Shown piece after piece: positions 41,149 to 59,015 of a stretch of DNA of 64,000 nt. A program made the translations under genes and the position numbers. This DNA is from Nitrososphaerota archaeon (lineage in GTDB: Archaea; Thermoproteota; Nitrososphaeria; Nitrososphaerales; Gagatemarchaeaceae). The stretch's first letter is position 1. Each line of letters opens with the position of its first letter. The stretch is taken from positions 1 to 64,000 of the forward strand of contig JAPCJI010000007.1 of assembly GCA_027887005.1 (NCBI GenBank), given 5' to 3'. The notes under the pieces were generated by a model. That model saw nothing but the letters and a program-made list of their open reading frames with translations, did no database searches and was not told the DNA's origin.

Positions 41149-41308
41149 GAACCTAGCTGGAACAAGGCCGCTCCTTCGGCCCTCTCAAGCGCCGGGACCA
41201 GCTTCCAGTTAGCCCGAAGGGTGTCGGTCGGTAGGATAGACAATCCCATATTCGATTCAAAGGGAATATTACAAATATACGCCCCGATTGTGAGCCTTGC
41301 TACAGCCT

Positions 41309-43957: not shown

Positions 43958-43975
43958 GGTACAGGGACCCGTTTC

Positions 43976-44014
43976 AATTATCACAACTGAGAATCTGCTA
44001 CCCGTGTTAAATAC
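43976..44014 (+). promoter_or_regulatory. Dyad operator plus TATA of the 2-oxoacid oxidoreductase operon (site e)
   Basis: AATTATCA (43976-43983), spacer CAAC, TGAGAATC (43988-43995), ten bases, then GTTAAATAC (44006-44014), nearly identical to the TATA of site c. The ATG of the ferredoxin subunit at 44038 is about 28 bases beyond the box, so the transcript is probably leaderless. Confidence 0.7.
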
Positions 44015-44037
44015 GCGAAAGGTCTGCGAAGCGAAAT

Positions 44038-44289
44038 ATGGAAAGGGCGATGGGGACTGTCCAACAGTCATTCGTGACGGTGGACCGAGAGGTCTGCAAG
44101 GGATGCAGCCTTTGCGTGGTCACCTGTCCGATGAAGAACTTCACACTTTCCGATTCTCTGAACAGAAACGGCTACCACCCGGCTGAGTTCCACTACCACG
44201 GGGAGAAGGGGGACTGCACAGCCTGCGGCATATGCTACTGGGTCTGTCCCGACTTCGCGGTCGCTGAAATCCGGAGGTTGAAGAGGTGA
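44038..44289 (+). CDS. 2-oxoacid:ferredoxin oxidoreductase delta subunit (2x[4Fe-4S])
   Basis: 83 aa, ATG start. Two complete cluster motifs: CKGCSLCVVTCP (about 20-31) and CTACGICYWVCP (about 60-71). Such a small ferredoxin-like subunit passes electrons from the TPP site to free ferredoxin. It overlaps the alpha-subunit start by 4 bases and is the first gene of a four-gene operon behind dyad site e. Confidence 0.92.
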   Translation: MERAMGTVQQSFVTVDREVCKGCSLCVVTCPMKNFTLSDSLNRNGYHPAEFHYHGEKGDCTACGICYWVCPDFAVAEIRRLKR

Positions 44290-45353
44290 CCACTCAGAAG
44301 GATTTTGTCAAGGGGAACGAGGCCCTAGCGCTAGGTGCACTGAAGGCAGGCATGAACGCCTACTTCGCCTACCCGATCACGCCGTCGAGTGAAGTGCCTG
44401 AGACCCTGGCGAGGGAGTTCAGGAGCCCGGAGTACCCAGAGTTCAAGGTCTTCCTCCAGGCCGCGAGCGAGCTGGAAGCTATCAACATGGTGATCGGCGC
44501 AGCTTCCACAGGCGCCAAGGTGATGACTGCTACCTCCGGTCCCGGCTTCAGCCTCAAGCAGGAGGGGATATCCTATGCCGCCGGGATGGAACTGCCCATC
44601 CTTGTTTCGAACGTGAACAGGGCGGGGCCCGGCCTCGGCAACCTCGGGCCGGAGCAGAGCGACTATTTCCAGACGACAAAGGGAGGGGGCCACGGCGGCT
44701 ACAAGAACATCGTACTCGCGCCGAACTCGGTCCAGGAGATGGCCGCGTTTCCTGGGCTTGGGTTCTCCCTTGCGTTCAAGTATAGGAACCCAGTCATAAT
44801 ACTCACCGACGCGTTCCTGGGGCAGCTGAAGGAAGACATTGTTTTCCCGAAGATACCTCAGGAGAAGTTTGAGACGCCCTGGGCTGCGACGGGAGCGAGG
44901 GGGGCAGAGAGACATGTCCTGGCCTCGATGCACCTGGAATTCGTGGACCAGAACATACACGCAGAACATCTGATGAGCAAGTACGAGGAGATCGACAGGT
45001 CGGAGCAGCGGTCGGAGATGTACATGACGGATGACGCGGAAATCGTGCTCGTAGCCTACGGGATAGTATCGAGGTTGGCTAGGCGCGCGGTCAACGAGCT
45101 CAGGGCCAAAGGGGTCAGGGCGGGCCTTTTCCGGCCCGTGACCCTCTCGCCGTTTCCGGCGGTGGAGCTTGGGAAGTTGGCCGAGAAGGGGATCGGGAAG
45201 TTCATCGTCGTCGAGCTGAACATGGGTCAGATGATACAGGACGTGAAGCTGGCAGTTGGAGGGCGGGCAAGCGTGGAGCTGGTCCATAAGCTCGGAGGGC
45301 TTCTGCCCACTTCGAAGGACGTGGTGGGAAGGGTGGAGGTGGCGGTCAGATGA
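44286..45353 (+). CDS. 2-oxoacid:ferredoxin oxidoreductase alpha subunit
   Basis: 355 aa, GTG start overlapping the delta subunit by 4 bases. YPITPSSEVPETLA (about 24-37) is the substrate-binding signature of KorA/VorB-type alpha subunits; ATSGPGFSLKQEGI follows. The lack of a fused gamma domain fits the four-subunit form. Oxidatively decarboxylates 2-oxoglutarate or branched 2-oxoacids to acyl-CoA, reducing ferredoxin; which acid cannot be told. Overlaps the beta gene by 4 bases. Confidence 0.93.
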   Translation: MTTQKDFVKGNEALALGALKAGMNAYFAYPITPSSEVPETLAREFRSPEYPEFKVFLQAASELEAINMVIGAASTGAKVMTATSGPGFSLKQEGISYAAGMELPILVSNVNRAGPGLGNLGPEQSDYFQTTKGGGHGGYKNIVLAPNSVQEMAAFPGLGFSLAFKYRNPVIILTDAFLGQLKEDIVFPKIPQEKFETPWAATGARGAERHVLASMHLEFVDQNIHAEHLMSKYEEIDRSEQRSEMYMTDDAEIVLVAYGIVSRLARRAVNELRAKGVRAGLFRPVTLSPFPAVELGKLAEKGIGKFIVVELNMGQMIQDVKLAVGGRASVELVHKLGGLLPTSKDVVGRVEVAVR

Positions 45354-46162
45354 CAATCGCGCAAGAAGTTGCCGCGCCTGAATTCGAGGTGAAGCTTGGG
45401 AGGCTCACGACCCTGACGGGGAAGCCCACACACTACTGCGCTGGCTGCGAGCATGGAATCCTCACGAGGCTAGTCGCCAACGCGATCGAGGAACTGGACA
45501 TGAGGGAGAAGACAGTGTATGTGGACTCGGTGGGATGCAGCGTCTTCGCCCACGAGTACTTCAACACGGATGCGGTGCAGGCCCCTCACGGACGGGCCCC
45601 CGCGGTCATGTCTGGCATCAAGCGTATGAGGCCGGACCTCCTGGTGCTGTCGGTCCAGGGGGACGGGGACGCAGTCTCGATAGGGCTGCTGGAGCTGGTG
45701 TATTCGGCAAGCAGGGGGGAACCAATTACCGTTTTCCTCGTCAACAACGGCATCTACGGAATGACAGGGGGTCAGATGGCCCCGACCACTCCCGGTGGGA
45801 TGGTCACCACGACTACCCCCTACGGAAGGGACACGAAGTACACCGGGACCCCAATGGACGCGTCGAAGCTGCTTGCGGGACTGGAGGGACCATCGTATGT
45901 GAAGCGGGTCTTTCTGCCCGTCTCCCCCATCGGCTCGACAGAGATGTACAGCGCGCGCGGCCCCCTGGAGGGCGCGAAGAGCGTGCTGAACGCGCTGAAG
46001 GTTCAGATGATGGGGGGCTTCTCGTTCGTTGAGTTCATCAGCACCTGCAGCATCAACTGGAAGATGTCCGTTCTGGAGTCAAAGCGCTACTCAAACGACG
46101 TGCTGGCCAAGGCGTTCCCGCCCGGCCTCTTCAAGGACAAGTTCGGAGTCGAGAAGAAGTGA
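45350..46162 (+). CDS. 2-oxoacid:ferredoxin oxidoreductase beta subunit
   Basis: 270 aa, ATG start. Carries the thiamine-diphosphate site: GDGDAVSIG (about 101-109) through NNGIYGMTGGQMAPTTP (about 128-144). Cysteines in HYCAGCEHG (about 25-33), VGCSVF and CSINW provide the internal [4Fe-4S] cluster. Forms the catalytic core with the alpha subunit. The YGMTGGQ motif is typical for KorB/VorA rather than pyruvate-specific PorB. Overlaps the gamma gene by 4 bases. Confidence 0.94.
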   Translation: MTIAQEVAAPEFEVKLGRLTTLTGKPTHYCAGCEHGILTRLVANAIEELDMREKTVYVDSVGCSVFAHEYFNTDAVQAPHGRAPAVMSGIKRMRPDLLVLSVQGDGDAVSIGLLELVYSASRGEPITVFLVNNGIYGMTGGQMAPTTPGGMVTTTTPYGRDTKYTGTPMDASKLLAGLEGPSYVKRVFLPVSPIGSTEMYSARGPLEGAKSVLNALKVQMMGGFSFVEFISTCSINWKMSVLESKRYSNDVLAKAFPPGLFKDKFGVEKK

Positions 46163-46770
46163 AGATTGAAGCGATCATAGCCGGACACGGAGGACAGGGA
46201 GTCCTTGAGCTCGCCAATTACATCTCCTACTTTCACCTCCTGAAGGGAAGGCACGTGGCCTACACCCCTTCCTACGGCCCCGAAACAAGGGGAGGAAAGG
46301 TGAAGTGCTACGTGGTCGGTTCGGACGGGTTGATCGATTCGCCCATAGTGGAGGAGCCGGACCTGCTTGTGGTCATGAACATCCCGTCCATGGACTTCGT
46401 CCCCATGCTCAAGACCGGAGGTACCCTGCTGATCAACAGCTCTCTAGTAGCGCAGCCACCGGACAGGAGCGACATCAGGTCGGTTATGGTCCCGGCAACC
46501 GAAATTGCCTCAGGGCTCAAAGAACTCGGGCCTCCAGGGGGCAAGGACACGGTCATAGTTGCGAACTCGGTGATGTTCGGAGCCTACCTGGCCCTCACAG
46601 AGGGATCCCCGGAGAAGGAAATGGGGACCATTCGTGAGGTCTTCGAGCACTTCCTGACGGAACGGAAGGCGGCCTACATCCCGCTCAACCTCAGGGCAGT
46701 GGAACGGGGCTACGAGCACGTGAAAGAGAACGGAGATCGAGTCTGGGCATCAAAAGAGATGCCCGCCTAG
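46159..46770 (+). CDS. 2-oxoacid:ferredoxin oxidoreductase gamma subunit
   Basis: 203 aa, GTG start. AGHGGQGVLELANYISYF (about 7-24) and the PSYGPETRGGKVKCYVV segment (about 38-54) are the conserved CoA-binding features of gamma subunits. Completes the delta-alpha-beta-gamma operon, whose genes all overlap by 4 bases, implying translational coupling and equal stoichiometry. Confidence 0.93.
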   Translation: MKIEAIIAGHGGQGVLELANYISYFHLLKGRHVAYTPSYGPETRGGKVKCYVVGSDGLIDSPIVEEPDLLVVMNIPSMDFVPMLKTGGTLLINSSLVAQPPDRSDIRSVMVPATEIASGLKELGPPGGKDTVIVANSVMFGAYLALTEGSPEKEMGTIREVFEHFLTERKAAYIPLNLRAVERGYEHVKENGDRVWASKEMPA

Positions 46771-46801: not shown

Positions 46802-48076
46802 GTGACAGGCTTGGCGTCGCAGGAAGGCACTTCTGCCGAGACGGTCTCATCTCTCGCCAGGAGCGCCCCCGGGTCGGCACTTTTCCTGGCAGTCATGTTC
46901 GTGGGCTACGCGGCCTACGCTGCTGACAGGAGCGTCCTTTCTTCCATGCTGAAGCCGCTTTCGACCGTTCTCGACCTCACCGACCTGCAGAAGGGACTCC
47001 TCAGCTCGGCGCAGTACGTCGGGGTCCTCGCCTTCGTGTTCCTGGCCGGCCACCTGTCTGACAGGTACGGGACGAGGAAGATCATCATCCTGGGTGTCTC
47101 GGTCTTCACGGCGTTTACCTGGCTGATCGGCCTCTCCACCGACTTCTACCAGGCGTTCTTCTTTCGGCTCGTCAGCGGGTTCGGAGAGGGGATATTCTGG
47201 CCCGTGGCTATGGCGGCAGTGGCCAACTACTTCCGGATGAGGAAGGGGTTGGCCCTGGGGATATTCTACGTGGGGTTCGACGCGGGGATGGCGACCGGGC
47301 TCACTGTCGGGGGGACGGCCTTCGCCCTGACCTCGGACTGGAGGTACGCTTTCTTCGTGGCCCCGCTCCTCGGGATCGCAGTGGTGGCAGGAGTCTTCGC
47401 AGCCAGAGGCGCATTCGCTTCGGCGGACGGTAGAGTGGGGAGGATCGCCCTGGGGAGGGATGCGCTGGAGCTCTTGAAAGGGAGAAGGACCCAGGTTCTG
47501 ATGCTCTTCGCCTTCCTCGCAACCTGGGCATCGGTGTGGCAGGTGGTCTTCCTTCCCTACTACTACTCGGCTGTCCTAGGACTCAGCATCCCACTGGCCG
47601 CGTTCCTCGCCTCCGCCGTGGCGATCTCCGGAGGACTCGGGAAGGTGATCCTAGGGGGCGCCTCCGATTCCTGGCGGAGGGACAGGATGCTCGTCGCAAT
47701 CTCCGCCGTCGTCGTGATCCTATACGCTGGGTTCTTCTCGGCCCCCAACGTCTTCGTCAGTGCTGTGATGGGGCTGGCTATGGGGTTCTTCAGCTCCTCC
47801 ATCTTCCCGGTGATGCAGGCGCTGATGGCTGATTCCTGCGATGGCAATACGGGCACTGCGCTCGGGCTGACGACAACCGCCCAGTCCGCGGCGACGGTCC
47901 TCGCGCCCGTTATCACTGCCTACCGTTTCTCGTTCGGGGTCGGAGGCTCTCTCGCCCTGAACGCCCTGGTGCCGGCCGTCGCCATGCTGGCCGTCGCCGT
48001 AGTCCTCAGGGAGCCCCGGATAGAGCCGCCGAGGCAGGGGACCCGGGGAACCATGGAAGCACCCAACCCTAAATAG
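46802..48076 (+). CDS. Major facilitator superfamily transporter
   Basis: 424 aa, GTG start, 12 membrane segments. The MFS motif GHLSDRYGTRKI (about 80-91) and LVSGFGEGIFWPVAMAAVANYF (about 122-143) resemble the anion:cation symporter and phthalate/tartrate carriers (ACS family), so an organic acid substrate is reasonable. Follows the 2-oxoacid oxidoreductase operon by 31 bases, possibly feeding it. Confidence 0.84.
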   Translation: MTGLASQEGTSAETVSSLARSAPGSALFLAVMFVGYAAYAADRSVLSSMLKPLSTVLDLTDLQKGLLSSAQYVGVLAFVFLAGHLSDRYGTRKIIILGVSVFTAFTWLIGLSTDFYQAFFFRLVSGFGEGIFWPVAMAAVANYFRMRKGLALGIFYVGFDAGMATGLTVGGTAFALTSDWRYAFFVAPLLGIAVVAGVFAARGAFASADGRVGRIALGRDALELLKGRRTQVLMLFAFLATWASVWQVVFLPYYYSAVLGLSIPLAAFLASAVAISGGLGKVILGGASDSWRRDRMLVAISAVVVILYAGFFSAPNVFVSAVMGLAMGFFSSSIFPVMQALMADSCDGNTGTALGLTTTAQSAATVLAPVITAYRFSFGVGGSLALNALVPAVAMLAVAVVLREPRIEPPRQGTRGTMEAPNPK

Positions 48077-48099: not shown

Positions 48100-48357
48100 A
48101 TGTGCATCACCAGGGTAGGCAAAGTCAGTTCGGCCTCACATGGGAGGGCAGCGGTGGAGTTCTTCGATGGAAGGGCCCTCGAAGACGTGGATGTCTCGAT
48201 GCTGAGGGACGTCGAGGCGGGCACCTTCGTCGAGGTGTACGGGAACCTCGCCCTTTCCGTCCTTGCCCCAGCTGAAGCTAGGAAGAGGAAGGCTGCCTGG
48301 GCAGAGGTTAGGAAGGCGGCGATGGTGGTGGCCCCGAGGCGTGGGAAGGGCAGATGA
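48100..48357 (+). CDS. HypC/HupF-like hydrogenase maturation chaperone
   Basis: 85 aa. Begins MCITRVGKV, placing cysteine at position 2 as in HypC, where it binds the Fe(CN)2CO precursor with HypD. The usual proline at position 6 is valine here. The rest (AAVEFFDGRALEDVDVSML, GTFVEVYGNLALSVLAPAEA) follows the HypC OB-fold pattern. ATG at 48100, 23 bases after the MFS stop. It overlaps the next gene by 4 bases. The closeness to the [NiFe]-hydrogenase operon on the opposite strand (49500-58176) supports the assignment. Confidence 0.72.
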   Translation: MCITRVGKVSSASHGRAAVEFFDGRALEDVDVSMLRDVEAGTFVEVYGNLALSVLAPAEARKRKAAWAEVRKAAMVVAPRRGKGR

Positions 48358-49118
48358 AGGAGAAGGGCATCCTGCTCCATGCAAAGCACGCGTTCATGCC
48401 CAACAGCCTTGGATACTGCGGGCCAGACGACAGGGGGCTGATCCTTCGGCACCTCGAGGAGTCCAGAGGTGGGGAGGCGCTGGTGTCCACCCTCAAGGAG
48501 TTCGAAGCGGCATACCCGTTCCTGAAGCTCATCGCGAGGAACACCGGGAGGGAGGTCTTCGACTATGCTGTGCCGGAAGCTTATTGGATCGGGAACAGCC
48601 TGCTGGACAGAGTCCCCGTGCAGGACTTCCATTCCTTTAGCCACAGGGAACTTGCCGGGAGGGACCCCAGGGAGGTCAAAAGGGTCTTCGGGGCCCTAGG
48701 CGGACAGGCGAGGCCCCACCATTCGTTCTATGTCATGAGCACCTATGCGAGCTCAAGCGTTGCGGACGGCCCGAATCTGGCCAACGAGAAGAGGGCCAAA
48801 CTCTCAGAGTTGATGGACAGTTGCAGGATTTCATGGGGGGAGGTCAAGAGCATCGGAAAGAGGAAGCTTACCGTCGAATACAGGCCTCTCGTGCTGGAGG
48901 AAGACCAGATTGCTCTGTCCGAGCCGAGGCAGAAGAAGGTGGATTACGACCCCGAGGTGAAACCCTTCGGGTCGCTGAAGCTGGGGGACCATGTTTCCCT
49001 GCACTGGAACTTCGCCTGCGATGTGCTGAGCCCGAGGCAGCTGAGGAACATTTCGAAGTACACGGCCCTGGACCTGGTGTCGACCAACCTCCTCCTGGCC
49101 GCGCGCCGCCGAAGATGA
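48354..49118 (+). CDS. Uncharacterised protein coupled to the HypC-like gene (DUF6390-like)
   Basis: 254 aa, ATG overlapping the HypC-like stop by 4 bases. Starts with KHAFMPNSLGYCGPDDRGLI (about 11-30), a Cys-Gly-Pro motif reminiscent of the archaeal/bacterial family DUF6390; I assign that family from memory, with modest certainty. Histidine-rich segments HSFSHREL and ARPHHSFYVMSTY may bind metal. No enzymatic motif recognised. Translational coupling to a HypC homologue beside a hydrogenase operon points to a role in hydrogenase assembly (inference). Confidence 0.6.
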   Translation: MKEKGILLHAKHAFMPNSLGYCGPDDRGLILRHLEESRGGEALVSTLKEFEAAYPFLKLIARNTGREVFDYAVPEAYWIGNSLLDRVPVQDFHSFSHRELAGRDPREVKRVFGALGGQARPHHSFYVMSTYASSSVADGPNLANEKRAKLSELMDSCRISWGEVKSIGKRKLTVEYRPLVLEEDQIALSEPRQKKVDYDPEVKPFGSLKLGDHVSLHWNFACDVLSPRQLRNISKYTALDLVSTNLLLAARRRR

Positions 49119-49131
49119 CCAAGCTTGGTGG

Positions 49132-49449
49132 TCAGGGTTCGATGCTCGAAAGTAGCTTGAGCCTTTGAACGCGTGCCCTGTCTAGTTCCTCGAACGAGCG
49201 CTGCAGGCTCGAAAGGAGCGCGATGTTCTTCTTCGACTCTTCCTGCAGCTGCTTGAAGACTGCACGCGAAGACTCGAAGCCTGATCTGTGCGCCAACGCC
49301 TCATAGCTGCTAACCAGGTCCTCCTCCACGCCAATCCACTGAAGAAGTGAATCGATGGTGGTCTCGAGGTAGCCCGTCTTGATGCTCTCCTCCACCTTCC
49401 TCGCGTCCTCGGGCGTGTTCACTTCCGAAATGAGCCGTTCGGTCTTCAT
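49132..49449 (-). CDS. Small all-helical protein at the end of the hydrogenase operon
   Basis: 105 aa, ATG start. Predicted as two or three long amphipathic helices (for example SSRAVFKQLQEESKKNIALL), without cysteines; the E-x(n)-E spacing is vaguely ferritin-like but no ExxH motif is evident. It starts 50 bases after the last hydrogenase subunit on the same strand and may be the last gene of that transcript. Function unknown. Confidence 0.55.
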   Translation of the reverse strand: MKTERLISEVNTPEDARKVEESIKTGYLETTIDSLLQWIGVEEDLVSSYEALAHRSGFESSRAVFKQLQEESKKNIALLSSLQRSFEELDRARVQRLKLLSSIEP

Positions 49450-49499: not shown

Positions 49500-50948
49500 T
49501 CAGGCTAGGAGACCCAATATCAACGCAGGGACGAGTCCGCTCACAAGGCTGAGTCCGATGAGGAAGGAGGAGGGGGCCATGTCCGCGGACGGTCCTGGGG
49601 AGCGTTCTCCCCCAGACGGGCCGAAGACGACCGTGTTGATCACCCTGTAGTAGTAGCCGATTGAAAGGGCGATGTTCGCTAGCACTGCAACCGCACCCCA
49701 AAAGAAGAGCGGGGAGGAGACAAGCAGGAGCGACTGGACTAGGAGAATCTCACTCCAAAACATGCCGAAGGGGGGAGACCCGACCATAGCCAAGGACGAC
49801 GCGGTGTAGAGCATCCCCAGGGACCTGTTCTGCCTCCCTGCCCCATTCAGCTTCTCCAGGTCAGCATCCTCGGAGACCCTCCTGCCTCCCACCCCTGTGA
49901 GCATGAAGAAGGCGGACTTCACCAGTCCGTGGTTCCAGATCAGGAAGGTCACCGCTATCAGGCCGAGGGGGGTGAAGGTCGAGAGGGCGGCGAGCATGTA
50001 GCCCATCTGGGCGATGGAGCTGAAGGCGAGCATTCGCCTGAGGTTGGTCTGGGCATAGGCCCCGAGGTTCCCGACAAGCATCGTGAGCACAGCCAGGACC
50101 AGCAGGGTCACCTGAACACCCTGGATCAGGGCGGACCCTCCTGACGGAACCAATGGCTGGATCACCTTCAGCATGGCGAAGAGGAGGGTTTCGTTGACCA
50201 CCCTGCCGTGAAGGGCGCCGGTCAGCGCCGGGGCGGAGCCGTAGGCGTCCGGAAGCCAGGTGTGCACCGGGAAGATCGCGACCTCGACTCCAAGGCCCAC
50301 GAGGACAAGCAGGAGCGCGGTGATCCCGTAGGAAGGATTGGAGCCGAGAAGGAGTGCGAGGTCTGCCAGCCTTATGCTCCCCAACTGAGTGTAGATCAGG
50401 GCGACGCCCAGCAGATAGACGAGGCTCCCGGACCCGGACAGGAAGAAGTACTTCATCGCCGCCTCCAGAGAGACGTCACGCCTCTCGAAGGACACTAGGC
50501 CGTAGGCAGCGATGCTGAGTCCTTCCCAGAACAGGAACAGGGTGAGGAAGTCTCCCGAAGAGATGACCCCAATGGAGCAGCTGACGAGGAGCATCAGGAG
50601 AGCGTAGAAGGGACCGACGTTCTCCTTGGCTCTCAGGGTGAGGGCGGCGTACACGGCCACGGCCAAGGCGGCGATGAGGACGGTGAGGATGACCAGATTC
50701 CCGAGCTTGTCGACGGAGTAGACGCTGGCGAAGATGGACTGGAGCGGCTGGATGATGACCGGGCCGTGACTGAGGAGGTCGGCCCAGTTAGCAAGGAGCT
50801 CGAAGAGGGTTGCCGAGAGGAAGACCGCGGCCACGCCACCGACCACCCGCGGCCTATGCCTCCCGAGCCTCCGCTTTGCAAGGTCGACCACGAGGGCGGA
50901 GATCGCTCCCGCGAACTGGAGCTCGAGCATCGTTGCGAGCCAGGGCAT
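49500..50948 (-). CDS. Antiporter-like membrane subunit of the hydrogenase (NuoM/NuoN-like)
   Basis: 482 aa, ATG start, about 14 membrane helices. FPVHTWLPDAYGSAPALTGALHG (about 223-245) is the conserved proton-channel region of Mrp/Nuo antiporter-like subunits. The lysine normally preceding it (K-V-P) is replaced: the sequence reads VEVAIFP. The next-helix lysine of canonical LLK-G is also absent (VVNETLLF). The ion path is therefore altered compared with NuoM. Last membrane subunit of the operon, 3 bases after the NuoL-like gene. Confidence 0.85.
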   Translation of the reverse strand: MPWLATMLELQFAGAISALVVDLAKRRLGRHRPRVVGGVAAVFLSATLFELLANWADLLSHGPVIIQPLQSIFASVYSVDKLGNLVILTVLIAALAVAVYAALTLRAKENVGPFYALLMLLVSCSIGVISSGDFLTLFLFWEGLSIAAYGLVSFERRDVSLEAAMKYFFLSGSGSLVYLLGVALIYTQLGSIRLADLALLLGSNPSYGITALLLVLVGLGVEVAIFPVHTWLPDAYGSAPALTGALHGRVVNETLLFAMLKVIQPLVPSGGSALIQGVQVTLLVLAVLTMLVGNLGAYAQTNLRRMLAFSSIAQMGYMLAALSTFTPLGLIAVTFLIWNHGLVKSAFFMLTGVGGRRVSEDADLEKLNGAGRQNRSLGMLYTASSLAMVGSPPFGMFWSEILLVQSLLLVSSPLFFWGAVAVLANIALSIGYYYRVINTVVFGPSGGERSPGPSADMAPSSFLIGLSLVSGLVPALILGLLA

Positions 50949-50951
50949 GGA

Positions 50952-52676
50952 CTAGAGCACTCCCGATGCGGCCAGAAGCAGCAGTAGGATTATGATTGAG
51001 AAAAGGAGGGCGACGTTGTACCTGAGGTCGCCGGTCTGGATTGCTGTGGCGAAGCGTGTCAGAAGCCTGATGCCAGAGGTGGTCAGGTAAGAGTAGAGCC
51101 TGTCGAACCCAAGACCTTCCAGGAGGAAAGCCTTGGTGCGGCTGAGGGGGAGCGACCTCCTCAATAGGGCCTCGGTCCACGCGGGCCTTACGAGGAAGGC
51201 CGCATAGGAGACACCCAGCCCCAGGAGCATTGCGCCTAGCGAGGCTGCAGATGTGAGGGCTGAGAGGGCCTCGCTGAGAGGGGGCAGCAGGAGACTCTGA
51301 TAGCCCAGACCGAGCCAGCCGAAGGCGACCAATGCGACCAGGAACATCATGGGGAGCAGCATCAGCCATCCAGATTCGGAGGCGCTGCTGGGGCGGAAGG
51401 GACCGTGGAAGACCCTGAAGAGCACACGGAAGCCGTAGAATGAAGTGAGTGCGAAGCCTATGACCATTACCAGCCCCGGAAGGACCCCACCTGAAGTCGC
51501 CGCGCCAAGTATCTCGTCCTTGGTCCAGAACCCAATCAGAGGAGGCAATCCAGCCATGGCGAGGGTCGAGAAGAGGAATGCTAGGTAGGTGTACTTCATG
51601 CTGCGAGCGAGCCCTCCCATATCCGAGATGTTGCGCGAGCCGACCGCCTCGATGACCGAGCCGGCGGCCATGAATGCCAGCGCTTTGAACAAACCTTGGC
51701 TTATCAGATGGTAGGTCGCGCCAGACCAGGCCCCTAGGCCGATGGCAGCGAACATTAGCCCCAGCTGGCTGATGGTCGAGTAGGCAAGCACCCGCTTCAG
51801 GTCCTCGGCCGCAGAGGCGCAGGCGGCACCGACTAGGAGGCTGGTCAGGCCGACGACCAGGACGGACGAGGAAACCAGCGACGAGTAGGCTATCACAGGG
51901 GACATCCTAACGAGGAGGTAGACCCCGGCGTTCACCATCGTCGCGGCATGGATTAGCGCACTGACGGGAGTGGGCCCCTCCATGGCGTCAGGGAGCCAGA
52001 CATGGAGCGGCACCTGAGCCGACTTTCCCATGGCGCCGATCAGGAAGAGCAGGCCCACCAGCTCCCAGTTCAACGAACCTGTTTGGACCGCTGCGTTGAC
52101 GTGGTCGAGGTCGGTGGTCCCGAGGCTGGTGAGGATCAGAATGACTGCAATGAGGAGGGAGATGTCACCTATGCGGGTTACAAGGAAGGCCTTGAACCCG
52201 GCCCTGCGCGCGGATTCCCTGTCGGTCCAGAAGGCGATAAGCAGGGCTGAACAGATGCCGACGACCTCCCAGAAGATGTAGAGTTGGATGAGGCTTCCGG
52301 CCATCACTAGGGCCAGCATCGCCCCGACGAAGACGAGGATTAGGGAGTAGAACCGAGCTTGGCCTGCCTCCTTCCTCATGTTCCCTGCGGCGTAGACGAC
52401 TATGGTGAAGGAGATGAGGGAGACGAACGCTGTCAGGAGCACCGAGAGGCCATCCACCTTTACCTCGGCGAGGACGCCACGGTAGACCGACCACCCTCCC
52501 AGTCCCTCCACGTAGGGCTGGGAGAAGGAGATGGCCTGGTAGAGGCCGAGCGAGGCAGCGACCCCGCTCACGGCCATAGCGACCCATCTGCAAGCCCTCC
52601 GGTCGATCAGGTTGGAGATGGGGACGAGCAAAGCCCCCGCGAGGGGGACGAGCCAGACGAGCCAGGCGACGAGCAT
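50952..52676 (-). CDS. Antiporter-like membrane subunit of the hydrogenase (NuoL-like)
   Basis: 574 aa, ATG start overlapping the NuoK-like stop by 1 base. The central motif MGKSAQVPLHVWLPDAMEGPTPVSALIHAATMVNAG (about 212-247) retains the key lysine, histidine and proline residues of NuoL. The lateral helix region after about 500 (KAFLLEGLGFDRLYSYL) is present. Expected to translocate H+ or Na+ when coupled to hydrogenase turnover. Confidence 0.92.
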   Translation of the reverse strand: MLVAWLVWLVPLAGALLVPISNLIDRRACRWVAMAVSGVAASLGLYQAISFSQPYVEGLGGWSVYRGVLAEVKVDGLSVLLTAFVSLISFTIVVYAAGNMRKEAGQARFYSLILVFVGAMLALVMAGSLIQLYIFWEVVGICSALLIAFWTDRESARRAGFKAFLVTRIGDISLLIAVILILTSLGTTDLDHVNAAVQTGSLNWELVGLLFLIGAMGKSAQVPLHVWLPDAMEGPTPVSALIHAATMVNAGVYLLVRMSPVIAYSSLVSSSVLVVGLTSLLVGAACASAAEDLKRVLAYSTISQLGLMFAAIGLGAWSGATYHLISQGLFKALAFMAAGSVIEAVGSRNISDMGGLARSMKYTYLAFLFSTLAMAGLPPLIGFWTKDEILGAATSGGVLPGLVMVIGFALTSFYGFRVLFRVFHGPFRPSSASESGWLMLLPMMFLVALVAFGWLGLGYQSLLLPPLSEALSALTSAASLGAMLLGLGVSYAAFLVRPAWTEALLRRSLPLSRTKAFLLEGLGFDRLYSYLTTSGIRLLTRFATAIQTGDLRYNVALLFSIIILLLLLAASGVL

Positions 52677-52984
52677 CAGTGACGCAGCTTCCTGATTCCG
52701 GACGGGTCGAGGGTCCCGTACTTGCGGTAGACTGTCACGACGATTGCAAGTCCGACGGCTTCCGCCGCTGCGCCTACGAATATCGAAAGAAAGACGAAGG
52801 TGTCCGACGTGAGACGCGGTCCGCTGCCAAGACCGGAAGCGAAGAGGGCCAGGTCAGCTCCAAGGAGGACGACCTGGAACGACATGACCGTCTTGATCAG
52901 GTTCTTCGAAGACGAGATTGACGCGATGCCCAGAAGGACGAGGAGCATCCCGGTGACAAGGTAGACTGTCTGGTCGGTGAGCAT
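52676..52984 (-). CDS. NuoK-like membrane subunit of the hydrogenase
   Basis: 102 aa, ATG start adjacent to the NuoJ-like stop. Three membrane helices; GADLALFASG (about 41-50) and FVGAAAEAVGLAIVVTVYRK (about 70-89) hold the conserved glutamate of the K subunit in the AEAVGLAI context. The first-helix-2 glutamate of NuoK (normally in VE-LNLN) is replaced by aspartate in GADLAL. Part of the E-channel linking the hydrogenase module to the antiporter arm. Confidence 0.88.
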   Translation of the reverse strand: MLTDQTVYLVTGMLLVLLGIASISSSKNLIKTVMSFQVVLLGADLALFASGLGSGPRLTSDTFVFLSIFVGAAAEAVGLAIVVTVYRKYGTLDPSGIRKLRH

Positions 52985-53467
52985 CTAGTTCTCCCCCGAG
53001 AAGAGGTTCACCACTGTCACCATCGCGGCTGTGAAGACCGTAATTACTATCAACAGGTCCCAGGGTCTGAAATCCCAGAGGAAGCCGAACATCTGCAGGG
53101 ACACGTCCTGATACTCCTGGGCGAGGTTGGAGGCGAGGGTCGATGTGACGGCGAGGAGGGCGACTGCAGCGAGGACCAGGACCCCGGCCGACAGCGCGAC
53201 TGCGGTCTTCCGGGCCCCGAGGTTCAGCTTCGACTCCCCGGTCATGAGAATCACGGTAAGCAGGAGCACAGAGACAGCGCCGGCGAAGGTCGCGATCTGG
53301 ACCAGCCCTACCAATGCGTCCCCGTAGACGGTGAACGCCACTCCGAGGGTGATTGACGCGTAGAAGAGCCCGATGAGGGAGACCGACACCTTCTTCGAGA
53401 AGAGGGCCACGAGCACTGTGCCCACTAGGACCGCGGATATGGCCAGGGAGAGCAGCACGCTAGCCAA
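52985..53467 (-). CDS. NuoJ-like membrane subunit of the hydrogenase
   Basis: 160 aa, TTG start overlapping the ferredoxin-like subunit by 8 bases. About five helices; GVAFTVYGDALVGLVQIATFAGAVSVLLL (about 42-70) is the NuoJ helix-3 segment, where Y-x-D/A-x-x-V-x-x-x-Q-I is conserved. Group 4 hydrogenases of the Ech and Hyc types lack a single full-length NuoJ; here it is intact. Confidence 0.88.
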   Translation of the reverse strand: MASVLLSLAISAVLVGTVLVALFSKKVSVSLIGLFYASITLGVAFTVYGDALVGLVQIATFAGAVSVLLLTVILMTGESKLNLGARKTAVALSAGVLVLAAVALLAVTSTLASNLAQEYQDVSLQMFGFLWDFRPWDLLIVITVFTAAMVTVVNLFSGEN

Positions 53468-53852
53468 GGGTCAGCGCCTTCTTCATGACCAGCGACTCTT
53501 TCTTGAAGACGGAGAGCTCGAAGTTGTGGGTGAGGGATAGGGCCCCGAACCTGCAGTCGTCCACGCACTGGCCGCATGAAATGCAGGTGTATAGGTCGAA
53601 GGACGGCCGCCTGATGTCCACTTCCCTCTCGCCGATTTTCTTCTTCCCCACGGGGACCATGGTGATTACCTGAGCGGGGCAGACGATTTCGCAGATGCTG
53701 CATCCAGTGCACTTGACCGGGTCGATGTCCAGCTTTCCCCGGAATCTCTGCGTGACCACCTTGTCCCCGAAGGGATACTCTTCGGTGACAGGCTTCTCGA
53801 GGGCCGTGCGGAACATTTCGCCGAGGGCCTTCCCCACTTTCATTCTTGACAT
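53460..53852 (-). CDS. Ferredoxin-like subunit of the hydrogenase (NuoI-like, 2x[4Fe-4S])
   Basis: 130 aa from ATG 53852, 4 bases after the NuoH-like stop; an in-frame start 45 bases upstream would overlap NuoH. Two full motifs CTGCSICEIVCP and CISCGQCVDDCR carry two [4Fe-4S] clusters. Takes electrons from soluble ferredoxin (or another donor) toward the NuoB-like subunit. No NuoE, F or G genes are present, so NADH is not the direct donor. Confidence 0.92.
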   Translation of the reverse strand: MSRMKVGKALGEMFRTALEKPVTEEYPFGDKVVTQRFRGKLDIDPVKCTGCSICEIVCPAQVITMVPVGKKKIGEREVDIRRPSFDLYTCISCGQCVDDCRFGALSLTHNFELSVFKKESLVMKKALTLG

Positions 53853-53856
53853 TGGG

Positions 53857-54831
53857 TCACCTGAACGAGACCAGGATCGCCAGGGCGAGCTGGGCAAGGG
53901 CCAGGGGAGTCAAGATGGTCCAGAATACCCGGGCCGCCTGGTCTATTCTAATCCGGGCCAGGGCCGTCCTTATCGCGAATATCAGGAAACCTACTGCGAA
54001 GAGCTTCGCGAGGAAGTACACTGTGTACCAGAAGGACTGGACGGTCGGGTCTGCGCTGAGCACGGGCCCCCCGGGACCGCCCAGGAAGAGGCTAACGGCC
54101 AGGGCCGAGAGGAAGACGTAGCTGAGGCTCTTGGTGAGCTTCACGTAGGCCAGGGTGTTGCCGGAGAACTCCGTCATCCACCCTCCGACTATCTCTGTCT
54201 TTGCACTAGGGATGTCGAAGGGGGGCTTCTCGAGTTCGGCCAGGGAGGAAAGGATGAAGACGCCGAAGGCCACGGGAGCGAGGAAGACATACCACAGCGA
54301 GGCCTGGGCGCTGGCTATCCCCTGGATCGAAAGGCTCCGGGCCAGTATCGCAGGGGTGATCATCGAAAGTATGAGCGGGACTTCGTAGCTCGTGTACTGG
54401 ACCACGAGCCGCCCTATGGCGATGGTGGAGTACCTGCCCGCCGAGGCGTAGCCCAGCATGGTGGCCATCAGGGTCGAGAGGGAAAGGACGAAGAGGATGA
54501 AGAGCAGGTCGAGGGGGTGGTAGAGGACCGCCTGGTATCCAAGAACGGGGACGAATACGATGCCTATCGCCGGGGCTGCAAAGTAGATTGAAGGACCCCA
54601 GCGAAGGACGAACTCGTCCGCCTCGGCTGGGATTATCTCCTCCTTGGCAGCCAGTTTGAAAAAATCTGCCACAGGCTGGAAGATGCCGAAGGGGCCTGCG
54701 ACCAGGGGACCCACTCTCCCCTGCATGCGGGCGACCGTCTTCCTCTCCAGCCATTCGAACAGGAACGCGAGCCAGACGAAGAAAGTCAGGCCCGGGAACA
54801 GGAGTAGCTGGACGACCTGTAGGGGGTTCAA
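53857..54831 (-). CDS. NuoH-like membrane subunit of the hydrogenase
   Basis: 324 aa from TTG 54831, which overlaps the large-subunit stop (TTGA) and gives the normal first helix LLLFPGLTFFVWLAFLFEW. ERKTVARMQGRVGPLVAGPFGIFQPVADFFKL (about 27-58) is the strongest NuoH signature; later SLAELEKPPFDIPSAKTEIVGGWMTEFSG (about 200-228) forms the conserved acidic loop. Anchors the hydrogenase module to the membrane arm. Group 4 hydrogenases and complex I share this subunit. Confidence 0.93.
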   Translation of the reverse strand: MNPLQVVQLLLFPGLTFFVWLAFLFEWLERKTVARMQGRVGPLVAGPFGIFQPVADFFKLAAKEEIIPAEADEFVLRWGPSIYFAAPAIGIVFVPVLGYQAVLYHPLDLLFILFVLSLSTLMATMLGYASAGRYSTIAIGRLVVQYTSYEVPLILSMITPAILARSLSIQGIASAQASLWYVFLAPVAFGVFILSSLAELEKPPFDIPSAKTEIVGGWMTEFSGNTLAYVKLTKSLSYVFLSALAVSLFLGGPGGPVLSADPTVQSFWYTVYFLAKLFAVGFLIFAIRTALARIRIDQAARVFWTILTPLALAQLALAILVSFR

Positions 54832-56066
54832 CCCTTCATCCTCCTGTAATATTCGATGCCGTAGTTTCGCAGCTCCTCCCCCCCGACAGACCATTCCTTC
54901 CCCTTGCCCACGTCCAGGACCGAGACCCTGTCCATGCAGCCGAAGCACGGGTCCATGCCGGTGAGGACAACGGGCACGTCGGCGAGGGTCTGGCCCTTCA
55001 GCATCTCAGTGGCGGTGAGGAGGTTGGCCATGGTGGGAGTCCTGATCTTCACCCGCTCCGGACCGCTTCCACCTCCGGACCTCACGAAGTAGAAGAGCTC
55101 ACCTCTGGGCGCTTCGACGTGGAGGGTGGATTCCCCCCGAGGGACCGCTCTCGGGATGCTCACCTTGAAGGGACCGGAGGGGAGCTTCTCCATCGCCTCC
55201 ATTACAAGGCGGCAGGACTCCCTGACTTCGCGGAGCCGGAGCGTCAGGAGCGAAGCGATGTCGCCCGCGCTGTCCGTCTGCACCCTGGGCACGACCTCGT
55301 CGTAGGCTGCGTAGGGGTCTTCGACCCTCACGTCTCGCGAAATGCCGGTGCACCGGAGGAGGGGTCCCACTGGGGAAAGCCTCCTGGCGGCGTCCTGGGT
55401 GATCTTGCCCACTCCCCTGGTCCTCACGGCAAGGGTCTCCTCCGTCTGGACCAGCTCAGTGTAGTAGTCGACCCTCCGCTCGATGTAACGTAGTTCCGTC
55501 CGAAGTTTGTCTGCAATACCATCCGGGAGGTCCATCCGGACTCCCCCGAAGGTGGAGTACGACTTGTGGACCCTGTTGCCGGTGATCGCCTCGGTCAGGT
55601 CGAGGACGTGCTCGCGGTCCTTCCAGACCCACATGAACAGGGTGTCTATCCCCGCCCAGTGCCCGACGAGCCCGAGCCAGAGTAGATGCGAGTGGATCCG
55701 CTCGAGCTCGGCGACAATCACTCTGATGTACTTTGCCCGTTTCGGGACCTCGAATTGAGTAAGAGCTTCTACCCCCTGGGTGTAGCCGAGGCTGTGGGCG
55801 AAGCTGCAGATGCCGCAGATCCGCTCGAAGAGGTAGATGTTTTTCACCCAGGTCCTCTCCTGGGCTGCTCGCTCGATCCCCCGATGGACGTAGCCGATCC
55901 TAGGGATGACACCGACAATCCTTTCGCCCTCGAGGATGAGCTTGAAGTATTCAGGCTCCTTCAGCGAAGGGTGGACAGGGCCGAAGGGCATCATGCTCTC
56001 TGGAGAGTACTCCATGAGCCCCGCGCTCGTCTCCTTGCGCTGCGCGGGTGGATTCCCTTCACTCAA
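54828..56066 (-). CDS. [NiFe]-hydrogenase large subunit, group 4 (NuoD-like)
   Basis: 412 aa, ATG start overlapping the NuoC-like stop by 8 bases. The fold is NuoD-like (GPVHPSLKEPEYF, GYVHRGIER), but both nickel-iron ligand pairs are kept: Cys84 and Cys87 in ERICGICSF, and Cys374 and Cys377 in DPCFGCMDR. Genuine complex I subunits have lost all four. A 32-residue tail follows Arg380 (VSVLDVGKG...), just as the cleaved tail of HycE follows its DPCYSCTDR. The operon also encodes the matching protease. Catalytic site for H2 evolution or uptake. Confidence 0.93.
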   Translation of the reverse strand: MSEGNPPAQRKETSAGLMEYSPESMMPFGPVHPSLKEPEYFKLILEGERIVGVIPRIGYVHRGIERAAQERTWVKNIYLFERICGICSFAHSLGYTQGVEALTQFEVPKRAKYIRVIVAELERIHSHLLWLGLVGHWAGIDTLFMWVWKDREHVLDLTEAITGNRVHKSYSTFGGVRMDLPDGIADKLRTELRYIERRVDYYTELVQTEETLAVRTRGVGKITQDAARRLSPVGPLLRCTGISRDVRVEDPYAAYDEVVPRVQTDSAGDIASLLTLRLREVRESCRLVMEAMEKLPSGPFKVSIPRAVPRGESTLHVEAPRGELFYFVRSGGGSGPERVKIRTPTMANLLTATEMLKGQTLADVPVVLTGMDPCFGCMDRVSVLDVGKGKEWSVGGEELRNYGIEYYRRMKG

Positions 56067-56502
56067 GCCCCATCATCCTCCTGATCTTCTCTGGGTTGGC
56101 TTCCCTCCGCAGCGGGGGAGGGGCGTCAGCAGGATAGTTGTCCGGGAGCAACAGCCTCTTGCCGAGGTAGGGGTTCCCCTCGAAGGCGACGCCTAGCAGG
56201 TCCTGGATCTCAGCTTCGTACAATACGGCAGACGGTAGGTCGCTCGAGACGGACGCCAGCTTCGCCTGGGTCTTCGGCACGGAGGTCCGAACCACCGCGA
56301 ACTTCCTTCCCTGCCAGAATTGATACAGCAGCGCTATCGTTTCCCCCTCGTCTATGCCTGTGATGGTGCTGAGGTGGTAGAGGCCGGGTACGGACGAGAC
56401 AGCCAGGCACGCCTCCCTGACCCTTTCCGGACTGACGTTGATCGTCGTGGTCCTCCGCTCCTCGACGATCTTCCCGCCGAGTCTGGCGGCGATGGCCGCC
56501 AT
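56059..56502 (-). CDS. NuoC-like subunit of the hydrogenase
   Basis: 147 aa from ATG 56502, 4 bases after the NuoB-like stop (same GTGACCCAATG junction as at the NuoI start). LYHLSTITGIDEGETIALLYQF and AEIQDLLGVAFEGNPYLGKRLLLPDNY (about 98-124) are the conserved 30-kDa-subunit signature. Structural subunit of the peripheral arm, holding the large subunit. Confidence 0.9.
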   Translation of the reverse strand: MAAIAARLGGKIVEERRTTTINVSPERVREACLAVSSVPGLYHLSTITGIDEGETIALLYQFWQGRKFAVVRTSVPKTQAKLASVSSDLPSAVLYEAEIQDLLGVAFEGNPYLGKRLLLPDNYPADAPPPLRREANPEKIRRMMGLE

Positions 56503-56506
56503 TGGG

Positions 56507-56974
56507 TCACCTGGCAATTTCGATACCTCCTTCGACTTCGTCCGCTGGCCCACCGAGGACCAGCTTCATGATCCCGTAGATTATCGCCTCAGGCCTGGGC
56601 GGGCAACCGGGGATGTAGAGGTCCACCGGAACCGCGGAGTCGATTCCATTTCCGACGTTGTAGCAGTCCTTCATGACGCCTCCGCCCAGGGCGCAGGCGC
56701 CGATCGCCACGACGTGCTTCGGTTCGGGCATCTGGTCGTAGACAGTCTTGAGGCGGTCTTTCATCAGGGGGTTGAGGGTCCCTGTTACCAGGAGGACGTC
56801 TGCGTGCCTCGGGCTCGGGACCAGCTCAACGCCAAGCCTCTCGGCATCGTAGCGCGGGGTAAGCGAGGCAAGTATCTCGATGTCGCATCCGTTGCAGGAG
56901 GCCGCGTTGACGTGGAAGACCCAGATGGACCTCTTTCGCGCCCACTGGGTCAGGCCGGACCTAAAACTCGCCAC
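56507..56974 (-). CDS. [NiFe]-hydrogenase small subunit, group 4 (NuoB-like)
   Basis: 155 aa, GTG start overlapping the NuoA-like gene by 14 bases. The proximal cluster motif reads HVNAASCNGCDIEIL (Cys27, Cys30), the CxxC form of hydrogenase small subunits, not the tandem CC of NuoB and FpoB. The remaining ligands are in IGACALGGGV (about 95) and IPGCPPRPEAI (about 125). It conducts electrons from the ferredoxin-like subunit to the NiFe site. Confidence 0.93.
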   Translation of the reverse strand: MASFRSGLTQWARKRSIWVFHVNAASCNGCDIEILASLTPRYDAERLGVELVPSPRHADVLLVTGTLNPLMKDRLKTVYDQMPEPKHVVAIGACALGGGVMKDCYNVGNGIDSAVPVDLYIPGCPPRPEAIIYGIMKLVLGGPADEVEGGIEIAR

Positions 56975-57305
56975 CTCCGACCGAGATGAACCACCAGACT
57001 GTCACCGTCAGGACGCTCCCGCCTCCTACGAGGAAGAGAAGCGGGTAGAAGCTCGAGACTGCGGTGAACGACCCGGCGAGGATCAGGACGAACGCTTCGA
57101 CTACCAAGAACAACACTGCGAAGACGAAGAGGTCGGACTTGTAGAGCCCCCTGGCAGGGATGGACTCTTCCCCCCCGGAGAAGGGCTGGTACCTCGCACC
57201 CTGCCCTGAGGACCGCTTTCCGAGTCGACCGACGATAAAGAAGACGATGATGTCAGCCACTACGATGATTACGGGACCTAGGAGGGCGTCGGTGAAGTCG
57301 GTCAT
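56961..57305 (-). CDS. NuoA-like membrane subunit encoded in the hydrogenase operon
   Basis: 114 aa, ATG start overlapping the protease gene by 4 bases. Three helices with the loop YQPFSGGEESIPARGLYKSDLFVFAVLFLVVEAF (about 39-72); the PFSGG...R...Y segment and the glutamate in VVEAF correspond to the NuoA PFGS...R and D/E-x-E features. The loop cysteine of typical NuoA is missing. A NuoA homologue is not normally found in Ech, Hyc or Mbh hydrogenases, so its presence beside intact NiFe ligands is notable. Confidence 0.83.
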   Translation of the reverse strand: MTDFTDALLGPVIIVVADIIVFFIVGRLGKRSSGQGARYQPFSGGEESIPARGLYKSDLFVFAVLFLVVEAFVLILAGSFTAVSSFYPLLFLVGGGSVLTVTVWWFISVGGGEF

Positions 57306-57805
57306 TTTGCCTTCCTCGCAATCCCGGCTACGGCGGCGATGAGCCTCTTGCTCGAGGACTCGACAGGATCCGAGAGGCTCTCTCCGACGTCCACCAACCC
57401 TGACTGGATGCCGACGACGAAGGTGTCCGAAGTTCTCTCCGCCAATCCCGGGATGAGTCTGAGGGGGATGTTGTGCGTAGCGAAGAAACCGAACTTCGTG
57501 TCGTTGAGGGAAGCGCAGATTATTGCGCCCGCTTTCCTCCCTGCCTCCACGGCGTCGAAGATGACGATTCTCTCGCCCTTCGATGCGAGGGCCGAGAGGA
57601 CCCGCTCGGGGCTCATCGACGGCTGGTGGATCTGAATTGTTGGCCCTGGGGAAGGACCCAGGATGCGCAGGAGCTCGGAGACGACTCGAAGACCGACGGC
57701 ATCATCCTGCTTGATCGGGTTGCCGATTCCCACGAGGTTGACCTTCTTGCTCCCGTCGAGCATTTCAGAGAGTTGAAGGAGCCAGCCGTCGTCGTTACCC
57801 ATCAT
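57302..57805 (-). CDS. [NiFe]-hydrogenase maturation protease (HycI type)
   Basis: 167 aa from ATG 57805, 17 bases after the HypA stop; a longer frame exists but covers hypA. LVGIGNPIKQDDAVGL (about 24-39) includes the first nickel-sensing Asp/Glu site, VIFDAVEAG the second Asp, and FFATHNIPLRLIPG the conserved histidine of HycI-type proteases. It would remove the tail of the large subunit after nickel insertion. Its place in the same operon as the substrate argues for a dedicated enzyme. Confidence 0.9.
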   Translation of the reverse strand: MMGNDDGWLLQLSEMLDGSKKVNLVGIGNPIKQDDAVGLRVVSELLRILGPSPGPTIQIHQPSMSPERVLSALASKGERIVIFDAVEAGRKAGAIICASLNDTKFGFFATHNIPLRLIPGLAERTSDTFVVGIQSGLVDVGESLSDPVESSSKRLIAAVAGIARKAK

Positions 57806-57822
57806 GGTTCCTGCTGGGTCGC

Positions 57823-58176
57823 CTACTCGACCGCGATTAGTTTCGCCTCCAAGCCTTCCTGCACCCGCAGAGAGGAGCCGCAATCGGGGCACGCGAACGC
57901 CGGGTCGATGCCGTGTTCGTGCCTTTCTAGTTTCAGCCTCCCCGTGAATCCGCACCTTGGGCATTCGACCGAGCCCTTCGTGAAGCGCACCTGGAGCTTT
58001 GCCGTTTCCACCCTCGTTCCCTTCGAGAGGACCGCGAACGCCGACGTCAGAGACTCCCTGGTTAGCCCCAGCATCTCGCCGACCTCCACTCTGATCACCA
58101 GTGGGCCCCTCTTCCTTCCCCTCGTCTCCTCGAGCACCGACTGCAGTATCTTGTCTGCGAAGACGTACTCGTGCAA
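57823..58176 (-). CDS. hypA: Hydrogenase nickel-insertion protein HypA
   Basis: 117 aa from TTG 58176, chosen because HypA needs Met-His-Glu at the N-terminus (MHEYVFADKI): His2 is a nickel ligand. A TTG three codons upstream would break this. The zinc site is CPRCGF (about 71-76) and CPDCGS (about 94-99). Delivers Ni to the large subunit with HypB, which is not in the window. First gene of the operon; a TATA-like CTAAATAAC lies about 26 bases upstream, and a second, dyad-linked promoter lies at 58313-58351. Confidence 0.92.
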   Translation of the reverse strand: MHEYVFADKILQSVLEETRGRKRGPLVIRVEVGEMLGLTRESLTSAFAVLSKGTRVETAKLQVRFTKGSVECPRCGFTGRLKLERHEHGIDPAFACPDCGSSLRVQEGLEAKLIAVE

Positions 58177-58198
58177 TGAATGCAACCAAGCCTCGGAT

Positions 58199-58357: not shown

Positions 58358-58843
58358 TCAGGAACCCAGGTCTGTCAGGAATTTCTTGTTGGCCTCGACG
58401 GTCTGCTTGAGCGCGTTGTCCCAGCCCTTCCTTTCGACCGCTGATTTTGTCATCAGCCTCCTCATGGCCGCGTTGAGGTCGTCGAGGCTGGCAGCCGCCA
58501 TTCCCACTTTGTCCACCGTGGAGACGAAGTCAGGATCGTTAATCTTGATCTTAAAGCCGTTCTTGTTGAGGAAGACAAGGCCCGCCACCAGGGCGGTCCT
58601 CTTGTTCCCAGCGTGGAAGTGCTGGCCGCTCGCGATCTTGAAGACAAGGAGGGAGGCCTTCTCCGGGACAGCTTCCTCGAAATCCTGGTTGTCCGCCCGG
58701 GAGGCGACCTCCTGGAGCAACTCCTCGAGCTTCTCCCCGTCTGCCTGGGTGTACTCGTGGGGCTCCCGAGTGAGCAGGACCACTTCCTTGTTTGCTTCGA
58801 CAAGGGTTGGGAAGTCCATGTGATGGATGGGTTTTTTCGCCAC
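58358..58843 (-). CDS. Fic/Doc-family protein (death-on-curing type)
   Basis: 161 aa from GTG 58843, placed about 25-30 bases after a TATA-like CGGTTAAATGC (58866-58876). The Fic motif HFHAGNKRTALVAGLVFLN (about 75-93) matches the Doc signature HxFxxGNKRT, where the catalytic histidine starts the loop. Fic/Doc enzymes transfer nucleotide or phosphate groups to target proteins; Doc phosphorylates EF-Tu. No antitoxin gene is seen beside it (the upstream 170 bases contain no convincing frame). ATG 58819 is an alternative start. Confidence 0.8.
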   Translation of the reverse strand: MAKKPIHHMDFPTLVEANKEVVLLTREPHEYTQADGEKLEELLQEVASRADNQDFEEAVPEKASLLVFKIASGQHFHAGNKRTALVAGLVFLNKNGFKIKINDPDFVSTVDKVGMAAASLDDLNAAMRRLMTKSAVERKGWDNALKQTVEANKKFLTDLGS

Positions 58844-59015
58844 GGGCAATCGCGCCAACCTCTTGCATTTAACCGATTGAGAGGAACCAAGCGTCGGGTT
58901 CCGCAAAGTCTTTAGGAGCAAACGAAGGTCGGTGTTTGGTTGCAGCCTCCCGTCTCTGACCTCGTCGAGGAATCAACCCGGATCCTCTCGGCGGCATCCG
59001 ATTCGGGGGTCACGC

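Follow-up and report, generated by a model that had tools for sequence, protein, structure and literature searches.

A pair of overlapping genes in a Nitrososphaerota archaeon encodes a divergent HypC-like protein (HypC') and a member of DUF6390 (PF19927), a named but uncharacterised family. From sequence comparison and structure prediction, we lean toward reading the pair as a [NiFe]-hydrogenase maturation module, in which a scaffold or transfer complex for the iron cofactor stands in for HypC-HypD. The association of DUF6390 with NiFe-hydrogenase maturation is near certain, and replacement of HypD is likely in the lineages that lack HypD, HypE and HypF (HypDEF); that the two proteins form a complex and bind iron is what we infer from these patterns. 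New here are the HypC-like domain in DUF6390, the absence of HypDEF from its carriers and the loss of His51 from the partner HypCs. Literature searches, with subscription journals and preprints outside their coverage, found no paper naming DUF6390 and no earlier report of HypDEF-less hydrogenases.

The pair lies in a window of 64,000 nucleotides, the whole stretch of DNA that was analysed, in a unit with the following features:

46802..48076, + strand: MFS transporter gene, first in the unit (PF07690, E 8.5e-45; homologue in 11 of 11 archaeal DUF6390 units)
48100..48357, + strand: divergent HypC-like protein HypC', 85 aa (PF01455, 29.5 bits; Cys2 kept, Pro6 to Val, His51 to Tyr)
48354..49118, + strand: DUF6390 protein, 254 aa (PF19927, E 3.8e-52; 25-sequence alignment; AlphaFold pTM 0.88)
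48354..48824, + strand: predicted all-helical N-terminal domain, residues 1-157 (AlphaFold, Foldseek, profile comparison)
48417..48425, + strand: Cys22-Gly23-Pro24 motif (C and G invariant in 25 aligned sequences)
48717..48722, + strand: His122-His123 (H123 invariant, H122 nearly invariant)
48816..49115, + strand: predicted HypC-like barrel and C-terminal helix, about residues 155-254 (hhalign, AlphaFold)
48816..48839, + strand: DSCRISWG motif, residues 155-162 (Cys157 at the HypC Cys2 position)
49002..49004, + strand: His217 (invariant; HypC His51 position)

Because the MFS gene ends 24 bp before the start of hypC', the unit has the order MFS-hypC'-DUF6390, three genes in all, opening with the transporter gene at 46802 and closing with the pair. 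HypC' is not a chance open reading frame, since the pair was found again at every one of the 11 archaeal loci and at most of the bacterial ones. Upstream of the MFS gene (41297-46770, + strand), a pyruvate phosphate dikinase-like gene and then a four-gene 2-oxoacid:ferredoxin oxidoreductase-like set were recognised by reading, and this gene set is syntenic in several related loci. The unit is convergent with a complex-I-like hydrogenase cluster:

49132..49449, - strand: conserved helical protein, 105 aa (homologues in most archaeal loci; no family over cut-off)
49500..54948, - strand: NuoN-, L-, K-, J-, I- and H-like membrane arm and ferredoxin subunit (PF00361, PF00420 and PF00146 in the subunits tested)
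54828..56066, - strand: NiFe large subunit (RICGIC, DPCFGC, C-terminal tail)
56059..56553, - strand: NuoC-like subunit, 30 kDa (PF00329, E 3e-18)
56507..56974, - strand: hydrogenase small subunit, NuoB-like (PF01058, E 7e-33)
57302..57832, - strand: probable hydrogenase maturation protease (PF01750, E 7e-4, 19.8 bits against a cut-off of 23)
57823..58185, - strand: HypA nickel metallochaperone (PF01155, E 5e-17)

Within this cluster, the antiporter-like subunits occupy 49500-52676 (- strand), and a putative membrane protein gene lies between the small subunit and the protease-like gene. The large subunit motifs FERICGIC and GMDPCFGC supply all four Cys ligands; by these motifs, the complex-I-like membrane arm and HypA, the neighbour is a group-4-like [NiFe]-hydrogenase. 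The 105-aa gene sits at the 3' end of the cluster, between DUF6390 and the last hydrogenase subunit, and its product has a weak, sub-threshold match to an encapsulin cargo ferritin-like family. Adjoining hypA is a gene for a Fic/DOC-domain protein (58358-58921, - strand, PF02661).

An earlier note, made from the sequence alone, had described much of this arrangement. Its 85-aa HypC-like reading frame with a Met-Cys start and Val for Pro was confirmed, with His51 to Tyr as a further change; so were the four-base overlap (ATGA, 48354-48357) and the CGP motif. The second protein is uncharacterised, as the note held, but it does belong to a family, and its supposed histidine-rich segments proved to be the conserved HH at 122-123 and HW at 217 rather than long His-rich tracts. 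The gap of about 380 bp to the last hydrogenase subunit on the opposite strand exists but is not empty, as it holds the 105-aa gene.

We surveyed the neighbourhoods of DUF6390 across lineages. In archaea, Chloroflexota, Patescibacteria, Actinobacteria and Sulfobacillus alike, its neighbours include hypC, a gene for a hydrogenase protease and genes for NiFe structural subunits. All 11 archaeal loci have a hypC gene next to it, as do 8 of the 16 bacterial loci (some of them incomplete) and 17 of 20 additional loci from Chloroflexota, and genes for a maturation protease and NiFe subunits are usually there too. In several Patescibacteria, the regions flanking DUF6390 yielded no hypC. By motif, the large subunits linked to DUF6390 are spread over several hydrogenase groups, and they retain RxCGxC, mostly EAPRG, DPCxxC and the C-terminal extension. 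The Arg of EAPRG is conserved and lies near the cyanide ligands. These neighbourhoods support the earlier note's proposal of a new hydrogenase assembly factor, although the company that it asked about, hypC plus group 4 enzymes, extends to NiFe hydrogenases of several groups. Nor is the family frequent where hydrogenase is absent, which the note had named as evidence against its proposal: of the 25 genomes located via DUF6390 (archaea, Sungbacteria, Chisholmbacteria, Roizmanbacteria, other Parcubacteria, Chloroflexi, Dormibacter and one actinobacterium), 23 encode a NiFe large subunit, and the two others are likely incomplete assemblies, given their short DUF6390 contigs (5.1 and 3.5 kb). Separately, two Dormibacter genomes each carry a second DUF6390 copy beside solute-binding and ABC transporter genes, away from hypC and hydrogenase. 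A transporter gene in the hypC-DUF6390 unit was seen at about 30 HypDEF-less loci, MFS in archaea and EamA in bacteria, and may import a ligand or cofactor precursor.

HypD, HypE and HypF are thought to be indispensable for assembling the iron side of the hydrogenase metal centre. In the 25 DUF6390-located genomes, a profile search found no HypD, and neither HypE nor HypF was over cut-off. Among 61 relatives of the archaeon, DUF6390 occurs in 7, all with a HypC-like match, and HypD in 7, with no genome holding both; HypF and HypE over cut-off were confined to the 7 HypD genomes. Four-Cys large subunits are present in 13 of the 61 (6 with DUF6390, 7 with HypD), and all 13 hold exactly one of HypD and DUF6390 (p = 5.8e-4, a significance inflated by the relatedness of the genomes). 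The seventh DUF6390 relative, 72% complete, gave no large-subunit match, and its DUF6390 contig stops before the expected place of that gene. Seven other relatives have PF00374 matches with neither HypD nor DUF6390; they are not counter-examples, since the matching subunits are Cys-less and complex-I-like. In these seven genomes, six of them of the same genus, complex-I-like 49-kDa subunits without CxxC replace the hydrogenase. Across 251 Chloroflexota genomes, DUF6390 was found in 24, HypD in 101 and both in none, where an overlap of 9.7 was expected (p = 2.7e-6, again inflated by relatedness). With duplicate genomes counted once, HypD was found in 0 of 47 DUF6390 genomes tested and HypE/HypF in 0 of 27. 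All 11 archaeal carriers have HypA, as do many Chloroflexota. With HypA kept and HypDEF gone, the nickel arm is retained and the iron-ligand arm is missing, except in ten Patescibacteria-type genomes in which a NiFe large subunit and DUF6390 were found but HypA, HypD, HypE and HypF were not detected; as judged by profile searches, very little of the maturation set is left in these ten. The absence of HypD, HypE and HypF suggests that the DUF6390 pair may stand in for the HypC-HypD scaffold in this archaeon and in most carriers.

The 254-aa protein matches PF19927 at 177.6 bits (cut-off 25) over residues 2-249, and is a full-length member of a family previously without function. In the alignment of 25 sequences, 26 columns are invariant, including P16 N17, C22 G23, W78, G80 N81, H123, C157 R158, S160 W161 G162 and H217 W218. 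The AlphaFold model (pLDDT 88, pTM 0.88) has helices over residues 1-157, a barrel with strands at 160-225 and a long C-terminal helix at 227-252. Using hhalign, DUF6390 matched canonical HypCs of related HypD-bearing archaea at E 3.9e-7 and the local HypC-like proteins at E 8e-6, with C157 aligned to HypC Cys2. The C-terminal part alone matched HypC at E 5e-8, and the N-terminal part alone gave no match; as a control, the real HypC profile scored 48 against at most 20 for 100 column-shuffled HypC profiles. Compared with solved HypC chains, the DUF6390 profile gave a weak match (E 0.16) in the C-terminal part only. Foldseek against the PDB returned small OB-type barrels only (E 0.02 or worse), with neither HypC nor HypD among the 50 matches listed and none for the helical part, which leaves the N-terminal domain without a known fold relative. 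On the strength of profile comparison and predicted architecture, we assign the C-terminal domain as a HypC-like barrel, in which Cys157 and His217 are the equivalents of HypC Cys2 and His51. DUF6390 is thus homologous in its C-terminal part to HypC/HybG/HupF, but differs in that a helical domain adds about 155 residues and its Cys is internal rather than N-terminal. It is not a divergent HypD: PF19927 was its only Pfam match, and neither the predicted fold nor Foldseek pointed to HypD. No recognisable Fe-S, [4Fe-4S] or redox CxxC motif was found in its sequence or model. Like the HypC-HypD scaffold (HypD, PF01924), the DUF6390 pair is a two-protein unit with a HypC and candidate Cys/His ligands, and it is present where HypD is missing; unlike that scaffold, it has no HypD likeness in sequence or fold, and in most carriers it has no HypE/HypF partners.

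HypC' itself passes the Pfam cut-off for PF01455 (28.5) narrowly, and at 31.9 bits it is below the cut-off of 48 for NCBIfam TIGR00074; its relatives, taken together as a profile, match canonical HypC at E 9e-21. It shares the invariant Cys2 with HypC/HybG/HupF but lacks both Pro6 and His51. The loss of His51 is common in such pairs: of the 36 HypCs that accompany DUF6390 in the absence of HypD, 27 are without it, whereas 12 of 12 canonical HypCs from HypD-bearing sets have it, a second Sulfobacillus HypC-type protein without His51 standing outside the 12 counted. In the E. coli HypCD complex, His51 of HypC has been proposed to ligate iron (PMC12134894). Its loss from the partner HypCs, together with the invariant His217 of DUF6390, suggests that DUF6390 may supply this ligand instead.

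These features could fit together as follows. HypC' and DUF6390 would form a complex that holds Fe, and finally Fe(CN)2CO, between HypC Cys2 and thiol or imidazole ligands of DUF6390, for which Cys157, His217 and possibly Cys22 and His122/123 are candidates. The complex would pass the iron group to the apo-large subunit, after which HypA would add Ni and the protease would trim the C-terminus. The MFS transporter of the unit is a candidate supplier of a CN/CO precursor; no enzyme making CN or CO was found in this analysis. Counting against this reading are the co-occurrence of HypDEF and DUF6390 on plasmids, the lack of a HypD fold and of recognisable Fe-S or redox CxxC motifs, the failure to find a source of CN or CO, the Dormibacter copy away from hyp genes and the Patescibacteria flanks that yielded no hypC.

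Plasmids of Mycobacterium intracellulare and Sulfobacillus acidophilus carry DUF6390 inside full hyp operons that include HypDEF, and in the former it lies directly 3' of hypD. These proteins form long branches in the DUF6390 tree, the rest of which comprises Chloroflexota, Patescibacteria, one actinobacterium and a single archaeal clade. They do not differ at the key residues, as Cys22, Cys157 and His217 are all kept. Strict universal exclusivity of DUF6390 and HypD is thus ruled out, and either HypD replacement is lineage-specific or DUF6390 is accessory. Its occurrence in full hyp operons makes DUF6390, on gene content, a general hydrogenase-maturation gene that is used without HypDEF in some lineages only.

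It is possible, though we think it rather unlikely, that DUF6390 only helps to deliver an Fe(CN)2CO group already made, as an auxiliary chaperone comparable to HoxV/HupK or an additional HypC, and that the HypDEF-less lineages use unrecognised enzymes for ligand making and assembly. The Mycobacterium and Sulfobacillus operons fit such a role, as does a domain that is HypC-like in a protein whose fold is not HypD-like. HypC paralogues and HoxV play an auxiliary delivery role of this kind (PMC12134894), and like these factors of O2-tolerant hydrogenases (PMC12134894), DUF6390 may be an intermediate carrier working with a HypC paralogue; HoxV, however, resembles hydrogenase large subunits, and DUF6390 does not. 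The strict anticorrelation of DUF6390 and HypD in Chloroflexota and Nitrososphaerota would be unexpected for a protein that only assists at a later step, and the DUF6390 neighbourhoods examined showed no other conserved enzyme.

A further, unlikely reading is that HypDEF-less hydrogenases obtain an imported or scavenged iron-ligand group or precursor, with the MFS or EamA protein importing it and HypC'/DUF6390 receiving it. One or other of these two unrelated transporter families is represented in the unit at every one of the 11 archaeal loci (MFS) and at 19 bacterial loci (EamA), the bacterial EamA gene often sits between hypC and DUF6390, and neither HypDEF-bearing plasmid operon has such a transporter. 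On the other side, about half of the Chloroflexota loci have none beside the pair, and EamA and MFS are huge families; NCBIfam gave no informative match for the substrate.

We consider it very improbable that HypD, HypE and HypF are present but were missed through incomplete assemblies or extreme divergence. Most carriers are indeed metagenome assemblies, and detection was by sequence profile only, but the same searches found HypD in the 101 Chloroflexota and 7 related archaea, and three separate families are gone together. HypD turned up in none of the 47 carriers, one of which is the genome that the window comes from (96% complete), and incompleteness cannot explain this absence. A coincidental neighbourhood, with DUF6390 unrelated to hydrogenase, deserves next to no credence: the second Dormibacter copies would fit it, but linkage to hypC, protease and NiFe subunits is kept over many phyla, and part of DUF6390 is homologous to HypC.

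Returning to HypC'/DUF6390 as a maturation module, we put at about even the chances that archaea, Chloroflexota and Patescibacteria have a route to the iron moiety of the [NiFe]-cofactor that does without HypD, HypE and HypF, with a HypC'/DUF6390 scaffold, ligands that do not come from HypEF carbamoyl chemistry and possibly a dedicated transporter. If this is true, there is another way to make or acquire the Fe(CN)2CO group, and HypC'/DUF6390 offers a compact pair for testing such a route. It would also rescue predictions of hydrogen metabolism for uncultured soil archaea, Dormibacteria and Patescibacteria, which would otherwise be called non-functional for having no hyp genes.
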